Below are positions 26,561-30,165 of a DNA stretch of 64,000 bases, piece after piece (positions within the stretch are counted from its first letter, which is position 1; the number at the start of each line of letters is the position of its first letter). The notes beneath the pieces are model-generated. The model did not search any database and was not told the DNA's origin. It was given only the letters and a program-made list of their open reading frames with translations. This DNA is from Actinomycetota bacterium (lineage in GTDB: Bacteria; Actinomycetota; Acidimicrobiia; Spongiisociales; UBA4744): contig JAADGS010000031.1 in the NCBI GenBank assembly GCA_013152275.1, positions 1 to 64,000 of the forward strand, in the 5' to 3' direction. Position numbers and translations under genes: made by a program.

Positions 26561-26587
26561 TATGCAGGGTATGCAGAATATGCAGAG
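26561..26587. promoter_or_regulatory. Three 9-bp TATGCAG iterons
   Basis: TATGCAG occurs at 26561-26567, 26570-26576 and 26579-26585 in perfect 9-bp phase (TATGCAGGG, TATGCAGAA, TATGCAGAG), 34 nt before the PocR-regulator start. This is the best operator candidate of the operon. The 9-bp period is slightly less than one helical turn. Confidence 0.65.
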
Positions 26588-26620
26588 TGATGTACGAAAG
26601 GCAGGACGCGGTTGGCCGGC

Positions 26621-27361
26621 ATGTTGACGTCCAAAGAGTTACAGGAGTTGCTCCAGGTGGATCGCTCGACGATCTACCGCATGGCCGAAGCCGGGTCGCT
26701 TCCTGCGGTCAAGGTGGGACGGCAGTGGCGGTTTCCCGAGGCAGCCATCGAACGCTGGCTCGCATCCGGACACGACGGGAGCGCCCCGTCGCGTGCAGCC
26801 GAGGCCGATGAGGGATTCGATCTGGCACCCACCTCATGTATCCAGCCGATCATCGACCTGCTCGCCGACATGCTGGGGGTGATGCTCGTCGTCACCGACA
26901 TGCAGGGCGTCCCGATCACCGACGTGTCCAACCCGTGCGGGCTGTTCAACGCCGTCGCACAGATACCCGGCGGAACCGCCGAATGTGTCGCGGGATGGCA
27001 GGATCTCGCCGGATCATCCGACCTCGAGCCTCGCTTCACCGGAAGCCATCTCGGCCTCATGTGTGCACGCTCATTCATTCGGGTGGGTACCGAACTGAAG
27101 GCGATGGTGATCGCGGGCGGTATCGCTCCAGGTGTCTGGCCGCCGAGTGACACGGAGTTGGAGTCGATGGCGCAGAGTTTCGGCGCGGATTCGGCGGACC
27201 TCGCCACCCACGTGGATGAGGTGTACGAGCTCGACGCGAACGCCCGGCAGAGAGTGTTGGAGGCACTGCCGCGTGTTGCGGCATTGATTTCCGAGATTAC
27301 GACGGAGTTCCGGTCGTTGCGAGGCAGGCTCGAGGCGATTGCCGCCCTCATCGAACGATAG
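26621..27361 (+). CDS. Excisionase-type HTH - PocR domain transcriptional regulator
   Basis: The 246-aa product has an N-terminal MerR/excisionase-like DNA-binding domain (residues 1-50, LTSKELQELLQVDRSTIYRMAE ... WRFPEAAIERWL) and a PocR ligand-binding domain from about residue 70. PocR domains are PAS-like sensors. This one has four cysteines, in SCIQPIID, NPCGLFNAV, AECVAGW and LMCARSF, which could bind a metal or react with sulfide. ATG at 26621; a TTG at 26612 is less likely. It is the first gene of the sulfur operon, 16 nt before the SQR gene, and the TATGCAG iterons upstream suggest autoregulation. Confidence 0.85.
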   Translation: MLTSKELQELLQVDRSTIYRMAEAGSLPAVKVGRQWRFPEAAIERWLASGHDGSAPSRAAEADEGFDLAPTSCIQPIIDLLADMLGVMLVVTDMQGVPITDVSNPCGLFNAVAQIPGGTAECVAGWQDLAGSSDLEPRFTGSHLGLMCARSFIRVGTELKAMVIAGGIAPGVWPPSDTELESMAQSFGADSADLATHVDEVYELDANARQRVLEALPRVAALISEITTEFRSLRGRLEAIAALIER

Positions 27362-27377
27362 ACAAGGAGCTGAGCGA

Positions 27378-28613
27378 ATGAGGAAACTGTTGGTCCTGGG
27401 CGCAGGCACTGCCGGCACCATGGTGGTGAACAAGATGAGCCACCATCTCGATCCCGACGAATGGCAGATCACGATCGTGGACCAGGACGAGACGCACTAC
27501 TACCAGCCGGGGTTTCTGTTCATCCCGTTCGGGATGTATGGGCGCAACGACGTCATCAAGGCCAAGCGAGACTACATCCCGACCGGTGTCGAGATGATCG
27601 TCTCGGAGATCGATGTGATCGACCCGGACAACAACCAGGTCAAACTCGTCAAGGGAGATCGCCGGCTGGACTACGACTACCTGGTCATTGCCACCGGGAC
27701 GCATCCGAGGCTGGACCAGACGCCCGGGCTTCTCGACGAAGAGAAACTTCCGGAGAACATTCACACCTTCTACACCCTCGAGGGAGCCGTGAACCTCGCC
27801 AAGTACCTGCGGTCCTGGGAAGGCGGACGGCTGGTGCTCAACATCATGGAGTTCCCGTTCAAGTGCCCGGTCGCTCCGCTGGAGTTCATCTTCCTTGCCG
27901 ACTGGTGGTTCACCGAGCAGGGGATCCGCGACAAGGTGGATCTGACCTTCGTGACCCCGCTTCCTGGGGCGTTCACGAAGCCGATCGCCTCTCGAGCGCT
28001 TGGCGGGATGCTGGAAGAGAAGAAGATCGCCCTGGTTCCGGACTTCATGCCGGAGCGGGTCGATGCGGACCGCAACACCCTCGTCGCGTTCGACGAGGAG
28101 GAGGTCGCATACGATCTGCTCGTCACCGTGCCGGTCAGTATGGGTGCCGACGTGATCGGACGATCGGGACTGGGAGATGAACTGAACCACGTTCCGGTCG
28201 ACAAGGAGACGTTCGTTTCCAAGAAGTACGACAACATCTTCGCTCTGGGCGACGCTGCAGCGCTGCCGACGTCCAAGGCGGGATCGGTTGCGCACTTCGC
28301 CGTCGATATCTGGACCGAGAACTTCCTTCGGTACATCGACGGCCTTCCCATGCTCGAGAGATTCGACGGTCACGCGAACTGTTTCATCGAGTCGGGCTTC
28401 GGCAAGGGGCTCCTGATCGACTTCAACTATGACACCGAGCCACTTCCGGGTAAGTACCCGCTTCCCGGCTTGGGCCCGTTCTCGCTGCTGCAGGAATCCG
28501 AGATGAACCACTGGGGCAAGATGATGTTCCGGTGGATGTACTGGAACGTGCTCCTCAAGGGCAAGGAAATGCCGGTCACCTCCTACATGACGATGGCAGG
28601 GAAGTGGAGCTGA
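27378..28613 (+). CDS. sqr: Sulfide:quinone oxidoreductase-like FAD protein
   Basis: This 411-aa flavoprotein starts with an FAD Rossmann motif (LVLGAGTAGTMVVNKM) and has a second one-end motif NIFALGDAAALP. It contains exactly two cysteines: Cys163 in FKCPVAPLE and Cys334 in HANCFIESG, matching the redox pair of SQR and flavocytochrome c sulfide dehydrogenase; the third SQR cysteine is absent. The C-terminus has amphipathic aromatic helices (KMMFRWMYWNVLL) suited to membrane attachment. Likely reaction: sulfide oxidation with electrons passed to quinone. RBS AAGGAG-like, ATG at 27378. The DUF1641 gene follows after one nucleotide. Confidence 0.85.
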   Translation: MRKLLVLGAGTAGTMVVNKMSHHLDPDEWQITIVDQDETHYYQPGFLFIPFGMYGRNDVIKAKRDYIPTGVEMIVSEIDVIDPDNNQVKLVKGDRRLDYDYLVIATGTHPRLDQTPGLLDEEKLPENIHTFYTLEGAVNLAKYLRSWEGGRLVLNIMEFPFKCPVAPLEFIFLADWWFTEQGIRDKVDLTFVTPLPGAFTKPIASRALGGMLEEKKIALVPDFMPERVDADRNTLVAFDEEEVAYDLLVTVPVSMGADVIGRSGLGDELNHVPVDKETFVSKKYDNIFALGDAAALPTSKAGSVAHFAVDIWTENFLRYIDGLPMLERFDGHANCFIESGFGKGLLIDFNYDTEPLPGKYPLPGLGPFSLLQESEMNHWGKMMFRWMYWNVLLKGKEMPVTSYMTMAGKWS

Positions 28614-28614
28614 G

Positions 28615-29301
28615 ATGAGTACCACGACCGACGACGTCGCCGAGCTGAGTCACAAGATCGACCAGCTCACCGCTCAGGTGCAGTTCCTCACCGAGGAGGC
28701 GCTCCTCGCGAGGGAGCGTCGCCAGGAACGCGACGAACTCATGGCCGACGTGACGCCGCTTGCCGGCGAGGCATATCGGTATGCAGTGCGTCAGCTCGAG
28801 CAGATAGATCGATACGTGACGCTCGACGACATGACCCATCTGGTCAAGAAGCTGTTGCGGAACGTCAAGAATCTCGAAGAGCTCCTCGACAGGATGGACA
28901 GTATCAAGGAGTTCATCGAGGACGCGACTCCCTTGACGCAGAGCGGAGTCATCAGCTTGATGGACGCGTTGCAGGACCTCGAGCACCGCGGCTACTTCGG
29001 GTTCATCCGAAGCGGTGGACAGGTGCTGGACAACATCGTCACGAGTTTCACGGAGGAGGATGTGCGCGCACTGGGCGACAACATCGTGCTGATCCTTCAG
29101 ACGGTGCGCGAGATGACTCAGCCGGAAGTGATGACGATGCTGCAGGATACGGCGAGGACGGTCCGCGAAGAAGAAGTTCCCGAAGACATCACGTGGCGGG
29201 CGTTGGTTCGCCAGATGCGTGACCCGGCGACCAAGAAGGGTCTGGCGAAGCTGATGCTGACCCTTCGGACGATTTCGGGCGAACAGCCGGAAAGACAGTA
29301 G
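28615..29301 (+). CDS. DUF1641 family protein
   Basis: A 228-aa, largely alpha-helical acidic protein of the DUF1641 family, with a helical N-terminus (KIDQLTAQVQFLTEEALL) and the conserved core around GVISLMDALQDLEHRGYFGF. Members are repeatedly found next to SQR-like flavoproteins or formate dehydrogenase-type genes; their biochemical role is not established. It starts one nucleotide after the SQR stop, which suggests coupled translation and a protein partner role for the flavoprotein. No membrane segment or cysteine is present. Confidence 0.87.
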   Translation: MSTTTDDVAELSHKIDQLTAQVQFLTEEALLARERRQERDELMADVTPLAGEAYRYAVRQLEQIDRYVTLDDMTHLVKKLLRNVKNLEELLDRMDSIKEFIEDATPLTQSGVISLMDALQDLEHRGYFGFIRSGGQVLDNIVTSFTEEDVRALGDNIVLILQTVREMTQPEVMTMLQDTARTVREEEVPEDITWRALVRQMRDPATKKGLAKLMLTLRTISGEQPERQ

Positions 29302-29314
29302 TAAAGGAGAAGTC

Positions 29315-29632
29315 ATGGCAACAGAAGTGATTGCCGGCCATGAGATCACCGTCGATGACGAAGGTTTCATGACCGATCCGAGCGAGTGGAGCGAGGTGCT
29401 CGCCGAGGCGCTCGCCAAGGAGATCAACATCGACGAACTGACCGAAGATCACTGGAAGGTGATCCGGTTCCTGCGAGCAGACCATGCAGAGACAGGGGAG
29501 ACGGCGACGATCCGGCGAGTTTCGATACAGACCGGTGTGACGACGAAACAGCTGTACCAGCTCTTCCCGAAAAAGCCTGCCAAGAAGATGGCGTACATCG
29601 CCGGCCTTCCAAAGCCGACCGGTTGCGTCTGA
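29315..29632 (+). CDS. tusE: DsrC/TusE family sulfur carrier, single-cysteine type
   Basis: The 105-aa product has the family fold and the C-terminal arm GLPKPTGCV with the penultimate redox cysteine (Cys104, CysA). The second cysteine of true DsrC, ten residues before, is replaced by Tyr, so the protein belongs with TusE-like sulfur relay forms that carry a persulfide but cannot make the intramolecular trisulfide of dissimilatory DsrC. No dsrAB is in the window. The RBS AAGGAG precedes ATG 29315. It likely accepts sulfur from the DsrE2-like neighbour or from the SQR product. Confidence 0.9.
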   Translation: MATEVIAGHEITVDDEGFMTDPSEWSEVLAEALAKEINIDELTEDHWKVIRFLRADHAETGETATIRRVSIQTGVTTKQLYQLFPKKPAKKMAYIAGLPKPTGCV

Positions 29633-29645
29633 AGGGAGTGCACCA

Positions 29646-30125
29646 ATGCCGAAGTTCGATGATGAGACGGACCGTAAGATCAGCATCATCCTGAGTAAGG
29701 GGAGCCTGGACTGGGCGACCGCAGCGATGGTGATCGCCAACGCGGCGGTCTCCGAAGGAACCGAACTGCATATCTTCTTCACCTTCTACGGCATGGATGC
29801 CGTGCTGAAGAAGAAGATGGATCATCTCAAGGTCACACCGCTCGCGAATCCATCGATGGGAATGCCGAACGCCGTTGCCGCCCTTCCGGGAGTGACGGCG
29901 ATGGCGACGGCGATGATGAAGAAGATGATGAAGAAGCAGGACGTTCCGGAGCATCGCGACTTCATCCAGATGGTCGCCGACGCAGGTGGTCACCTGCACG
30001 TGTGCCGGATGACGTTCGACATGTTCGGATTCAAAGAGGAGGATCTCTACGAAGAGGTGGAAGACGTGCTCAACGCAACCGATTTCCTCGAGCTTGCCGA
30101 CGGCGGCCAGATCATCTTCATCTGA
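29646..30125 (+). CDS. dsrE2: DsrE2-like sulfur transfer protein
   Basis: A 159-aa DsrE/F-like protein with one cysteine, Cys120 in HLHVCRMTFDMFGFK, the DsrE2 persulfide position. The N-terminus KISIILSKGSLDWATAAMVIANAA and the central Met-rich patch (MATAMMKKMMKKQ) are typical of this group. DsrE2 proteins exchange sulfane sulfur with TusA or DsrC/TusE partners. RBS AAGGGAG, ATG 29646. It is the last operon gene and is followed within 15 nt by an intrinsic terminator. Met and Lys clusters near residues 85-97 may mediate membrane or partner contact. Confidence 0.87.
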   Translation: MPKFDDETDRKISIILSKGSLDWATAAMVIANAAVSEGTELHIFFTFYGMDAVLKKKMDHLKVTPLANPSMGMPNAVAALPGVTAMATAMMKKMMKKQDVPEHRDFIQMVADAGGHLHVCRMTFDMFGFKEEDLYEEVEDVLNATDFLELADGGQIIFI

Positions 30126-30138
30126 TTGCAGACTGTTG

Positions 30139-30165
30139 GAGGGGGTCCGCGAGGGCCCCCTCTTT
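30139..30165 (+). terminator. Intrinsic terminator of the sulfur operon
   Basis: GAGGGGG (30139-30145) pairs perfectly with CCCCCTC (30156-30162), extendable through TCC/GGG, with a small loop and a TTT start of the tail. It lies 14 nt after the dsrE2-like stop codon. Confidence 0.85.

Follow-up and report, generated by a model that had tools for sequence, protein, structure and literature searches.

The five genes studied here belong to a true and broadly distributed gene unit. Its core comprises four genes, encoding an SQR-type flavoprotein, a DUF1641 protein, a DsrC-family protein and a DsrE2-like protein, and in many Actinomycetota it consists of three, without DUF1641. Judging from profiles and conserved residues, the most likely role of the cassette is to oxidise sulfide, with the menaquinone pool taking the electrons, and to capture sulfane sulfur on proteins. 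That it forms a self-contained, locally switched cassette for sulfide oxidation and sulfane-sulfur export is a reading we hold with moderate confidence.

In the window, i.e., the whole stretch of 64,000 nucleotides that was analysed, the cassette consists of five ORFs on one strand, spanning 26621-30125. The families assigned to them by profiles are, in order, HTH_17+PocR, SQR (NF049943), DUF1641, DsrC and DsrE2-like. The features of the locus are the following:

26561..26585, no strand given: three TATGCAG iterons spaced 9 bp apart, predicted to be the operator for the HTH17-PocR regulator
26621..27361, + strand: HTH17-PocR one-component regulator, with a BldC/excisionase-type winged HTH and a PocR sensor (from profiles)
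27378..28613, + strand: SQR-type flavoprotein of the NF049943 family, Cys form, with redox C163 and C335 (from profile and structure alignment)
28615..29301, + strand: DUF1641 protein, all-helical and Cys-free, predicted to couple to the membrane or to menaquinone in the manner of ForE/YjlC
29315..29632, + strand: DsrC-family sulfur carrier of the TusE type, with the penultimate C104 as its only cysteine
29646..30125, + strand: DsrE2-like sulfurtransferase with a single cysteine, C120
30138..30163, + strand: terminator-like hairpin of 11 pairs with a loop of 4 nt and a short stretch of T behind it

The original prediction described five tightly spaced genes (gaps of 1-16 nt) between an iteron block and a terminator. 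The ORF calls bear out the spacing, with intergenic gaps of 16, 1, 13 and 13 nt, and the iteron block is present upstream as three copies of TATGCAG (26561-26567, 26570-26576 and 26579-26585), exactly 9 bp apart. The hairpin is also present at the 3' end. Given that shuffled sequence yields about as many terminator-like sites in the same scan, its reading as a terminator rests on its position. No sigma-70-like promoter was found at the five-gene locus, and no fusions between the five gene families were found in a neighbour survey of 105 loci.

Bacterial genomes were scanned with the SQR profile alone, so the neighbouring genes had no influence on the selection of loci. Gene order was then counted in the best 80 named loci, i.e., the ones with the highest similarity to the query. 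SQR-DUF1641-DsrC-DsrE2 occurs in this order and strand in 72 of these 80 loci. Among the eight exceptions, six are cut by a contig end and the remaining two (L127 and L133) do not have DUF1641. The unit is present in at least nine phyla, namely Actinomycetota, Chloroflexota, KSB1, Calditrichota, Fidelibacterota (Marinimicrobia), Bacteroidota, Verrucomicrobiota, Caldifarciminota and Ignavibacteriota. Given this recurrence, the order is beyond chance, and the possibility that the five genes came together by chance, or form an arrangement of merely local extent, is refuted to the point of being vanishingly improbable. A lack of conservation of the order had been named beforehand as a refuting outcome, and it did not occur: the four-gene order is conserved, whereas membership of the PocR regulator varies.

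Any further neighbour family appears in at most 13 of the 105 loci, and the four-gene unit is therefore self-contained. Between the four proteins, pairwise distances are correlated with r of 0.53 to 0.72 (permutation maximum 0.14), a correlation to which common organismal descent contributes. Mapped onto the SQR tree, DUF1641 requires four changes of presence and the PocR regulator eleven. The three-gene form SQR-DsrC-DsrE2 is common in the sample from Actinomycetota, the phylum of the window, and no hidden DUF1641 gene was found near these three-gene cassettes. Within the order and family of the window, SQR is found in 39 of 59 genomes, and all five genes are present in most of the best-matching ones.

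The flavoprotein scores 626.6 bits against NF049943, for which the curated cut-off is 525. Human SQOR has two catalytic cysteines, numbered Cys201 and Cys379. Its structure (8dhk) is the best solved match, over the whole length (E 8e-41), with C163 and C335 aligned to both catalytic cysteines, and these two residues are invariant in 96 of 96 homologues. The two-cysteine SQR-like flavoprotein first proposed is confirmed, with C163 placed correctly and the second cysteine being C335 rather than C334. The protein is similar to human SQOR and to the NF049943 type III selenoprotein subtype over its whole length, and in the FAD site and both redox cysteines. In contrast with that subtype, Cys replaces Sec at C335: the motif in the window is HANC, with no Sec in an HxxU motif, which places the protein outside the selenoprotein subtype. 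Unlike known SQRs, it has DUF1641, DsrC and DsrE2 as fixed partners.

A 2026 review lists the NF049943-type SQR as a selenoprotein with HxxU (PMC13188914). Among the homologues, an in-frame UGA lies exactly at the C335 position in seven of seven UGA-bearing sequences (motif DGHATU), all of which belong to one actinobacterial family. This exchange of Cys and Sec in nature marks C335 as a reactive nucleophile. The UGA-bearing homologues (L039-L043, L049 and L051) have no cassette DsrC or DsrE2 adjoining, and the DsrC of L049 has both arm cysteines. Two more SQR-like flavoproteins are encoded in the genome of the window (L063 on contig C20 and L064 on contig C40), both far below the family cut-off, and no partner genes were found near them.

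Anaerolinea thermolimosa, a strict anaerobe reputed to be fermentative, has all four core genes (L103), so sulfide respiration with oxygen is not the only use of the cassette. The four genes are also present in Kineosporia sp. A_224, and neither of these two records is a MAG. The presence of the cassette in such an anaerobe also favours another reading, in which the flavoprotein is a quinol- or NAD(P)H-linked reductase of persulfide, polysulfide or protein disulfide, or uses some sulfur compound instead of sulfide as its substrate. CoA-disulfide reductases and NDH-2 belong to the flavoprotein superfamily and gave weak matches, and the evidence for a sulfide oxidiser is mostly homology. Nevertheless, the whole-length match to SQOR with both catalytic cysteines, the score of 626 bits to the SQR family and the Sec substitution at C335 all argue against this alternative, which we consider unlikely.

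The DUF1641 protein of the window scores 20.5 bits against PF07849, just below the Pfam cut-off of 21, and 64 of 68 family members match PF07849 at E<0.01 (best 1.9e-11). Given it has no cysteine, and none is conserved across the family, it is not a sulfur carrier. No membrane helix was detected by hydropathy. The AlphaFold model is an extended helical protein with a low pTM of 0.37, and a Foldseek search with this low-pTM model returned no fold match. When a profile built from the 68 family members was compared with solved structures, it matched ForE1 (E 1e-7), YjlC (0.002) and an "NDH-2 membrane coupling protein" (0.004), with the ForE1/YjlC match lying mainly in the C-terminal half. In the named loci, the DUF1641 gene is located directly 3' of SQR wherever it is present.

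Formate dehydrogenase requires ForE for menaquinone use (PMC8808070), and a Parageobacillus hydrogenase operon also includes DUF1641 genes (PMC12976888). As in the ForCE formate dehydrogenase and the YjlC/NDH-2 pairs, where DUF1641 partners a soluble or peripheral dehydrogenase that needs menaquinone (PMC8808070; 8rqz, 9snk, 9pxk), the family is found here beside a flavoprotein. In this case, however, the partner is of the SQR type, two sulfur carriers and a regulator are encoded in the operon as well, and the quinone coupling is predicted. A further likeness is found in Ignicoccus hospitalis, where a DUF1641 protein (Iho_0672) and an FAD oxidoreductase (Iho_0673), encoded by genes with consecutive locus tags, rise together in co-culture, although that study assigned no function to them and reported no carriers (PMC3149612).

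These similarities suggest DUF1641 probably couples SQR to membrane menaquinone, and the simplest reading is that it would be a common adapter bringing dehydrogenases to the quinone pool. Given many actinobacterial cassettes do without it, DUF1641 would improve SQR action rather than enable it. It is fairly unlikely that DUF1641 instead serves as a scaffold, keeping SQR, DsrE2 and DsrC together for substrate channelling, with no quinone coupling. A long, helical and cysteine-free protein encoded directly after SQR would suit this role, as would a profile match mostly limited to its C-terminal half, but the solved relatives bear the names ForE1 and NDH-2 membrane coupling protein, and menaquinone use depends on ForE.

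The DsrC protein scores 117.9 bits against PF04358 (cut-off 24.9) and 89.2 against TIGR03342 (cut-off 53.5), and hence belongs to the TusE/DsrC/DsvC family, but it reaches only 70.6 against the TusE equivalog NF008562, whose cut-off is 191. Its penultimate C104 is kept in 94 of 94 sequences. The family has no CysB column, which separates it from the two-cysteine dissimilatory DsrC; given only the penultimate cysteine is present, the protein is of the TusE type and no DsrC trisulfide is possible. Likewise, the DsrE2-like protein scores 120.6 bits against PF13686 (DrsE_2; cut-off 25) and 119 against the DsrE2 equivalog NF047629, below its cut-off of 210, and C120 is conserved in 87 of 88 sequences. 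The conservation of both residues upholds the claim of two single-cysteine sulfur carriers. As both proteins fall below the cut-offs of the characterised equivalogs, they represent separate subfamilies.

By analogy with family chemistry, a sulfur relay may run between DsrE2 and DsrC, in either direction. The cassette is similar to the DsrEFH-DsrC and dsrE3A-dsrE2B-tusA relays in that carriers of the DsrE and DsrC families present single reactive cysteines. It differs from the DsrE/TusA/TusE relays in that the operon has no DsrEFH, DsrAB or Hdr and its carriers, neither of which reaches the cut-off of its equivalog (TusE or DsrE2), are tied to SQR.

The operon contains no gene for a sulfur sink. 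Profile searches of the genome gave no match for dsrA or soxB, and none above the cut-off for hdrB; the HdrB-like matches are far below it, and the best of them has neighbouring ORFs suggestive of a lactate-utilisation cluster. On contig C18, outside the window, a tusA and a second dsrE2 adjoin (L150:980-1489 and L150:1486-1971). This distant pair is a possible next acceptor or downstream partner of the cassette. The genome has one MnmA, and MnmA matches occur in 13 of 14 control genomes.

The cassette could alternatively supply sulfur for biosynthesis, with the TusE-type protein passing it to enzymes of thiolation, either MnmA (acting on tRNA) or others, and the SQR persulfide as source. The TusE-like, single-cysteine DsrC is in line with this, as are the one MnmA and the separate tusA-dsrE2 pair of the genome. 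We nonetheless regard it as quite improbable: DsrC is far under the TusE equivalog cut-off, the cassette is missing in about one third of the relatives whereas MnmA is present in nearly all control genomes, and a dedicated one-component regulator in varied clades suits induction better than housekeeping.

Both domains of the regulator in the window are supported by profiles, with 65.4 bits for HTH_17 (cut-off 27) and 61.2 for PocR (cut-off 23.9). Its structure model has a pLDDT of 92, and Foldseek returned only weak matches of the IclR/CodY/GAF-like kind. The regulator profile matches the BldC-DNA structures 6ama/6amk (E 6e-5), while its score of 17.6 against the BldC subfamily is below the cut-off of 77. 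BldC subunits bind 9-bp direct repeats (PMC5859096). Upstream of the HTH17-PocR genes, TGCA pairs at 9-bp spacing were found in 20 of 34 cases (42 pairs), compared with 0 of 77 control upstreams and a mean of 0.1 (maximum 2) of 34 in shuffles, and such repeats recur in near relatives. These values make it a strong prediction that the TGCA iterons at 9-bp spacing are the operator of the HTH17-PocR regulator. As in BldC of Streptomyces, a related winged HTH is associated with 9-bp direct-repeat sites, but here a PocR sensor is attached, the site is based on TGCA instead of the AATT of BldC, and the protein lies under the BldC subfamily cut-off. A genome search for a wider regulon through the triple repeat yielded one other site only, at C90:14172-14193, which may be due to chance.

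The PocR sensor of this regulator has cysteines at C106, C122 and C148. PocR domains may commonly have such a triad of cysteines, and the conserved cysteines were therefore rejected as proof of sulfide sensing.

An HTH17-PocR gene is located 5' of the cassette in 34 of the 80 loci, almost all from Actinomycetota and Chloroflexota. Elsewhere its place is taken by ArsR (Chloroflexota) or Cys-rich MerR genes (KSB1, Calditrichota and Fidelibacterota), and in single cases by an XRE-cupin gene or by divergent Crp/Fnr genes. Given these replacements in other clades, the unit has no constant PocR regulator, and PocR-type control, originally presented as part of the system, proved to be clade-specific. 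Cys-rich MerR-type regulators were observed upstream of SQR at L093, L097, L113, L123 and L135. Regulators of the ArsR type, the majority of which have one cysteine near the N-terminus, lie directly upstream at L072, L103, L105, L109, L116, L118, L127, L129, L130, L142 and L147, all of which are cassette loci of Chloroflexota.

The mechanism we propose for sulfide oxidation by the cassette has the following steps. By homology and conserved residues, the SQR flavoprotein would oxidise sulfide via FAD and C163/C335, leaving a persulfide. The helical DUF1641 would dock SQR at the membrane and aid the passage of electrons to menaquinone, as suggested by its adjacency and its profile similarity to ForE and YjlC. 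The sulfane sulfur would pass to C120 of DsrE2 and on to C104 of the TusE-type DsrC, or in the reverse direction, and this relay would keep free polysulfide low and deliver sulfur to an acceptor encoded elsewhere. The predicted operator of the regulator is conserved; HTH17-PocR presumably binds its 9-bp TGCA iterons head-to-tail, in a BldC-like manner, and would control its own operon upon a sulfide-linked signal.

Literature searches for SQR with DsrE2 and TusE, for DUF1641, and for PocR with sulfide returned open papers, none of which describes the cassette. The combination of SQR, DUF1641, DsrC and DsrE2 is thus not described in the open literature covered, which includes few subscription journals and in which only nine papers mention DUF1641. 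This agrees with the initial claim that PocR-type control and a DUF1641 partner in such a setting had not been reported as a system. The parts are of known kinds, while the combination and the DUF1641-SQR link appear to be undescribed. We consider the chances evenly balanced that the cassette is a widespread, undescribed sulfide-oxidation module of bacteria in which the Dsr and Sox genes searched for gave no match. In such a module, SQR would leave membrane and quinone coupling to a detachable subunit of the ForE type, persulfide would pass directly to DsrE2 and a TusE-type DsrC, and one-component switches would be clade-specific, one of them a ligand-controlled BldC-like protein on 9-bp TGCA iterons.

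These results provide a testable function for DUF1641 in sulfur metabolism and suggest that it is a general adapter linking dehydrogenases (of formate, NADH, perhaps hydrogen, and now sulfide) to menaquinone. An exact operator, TGCA with a 9-bp period, is predicted for BldC-like regulators of a new class, in which a sensor domain is attached. The results also indicate that Acidimicrobiia, Anaerolineae, Marinimicrobia, Calditrichota and others have a route of sulfide handling which would escape surveys of dsr and sox genes.
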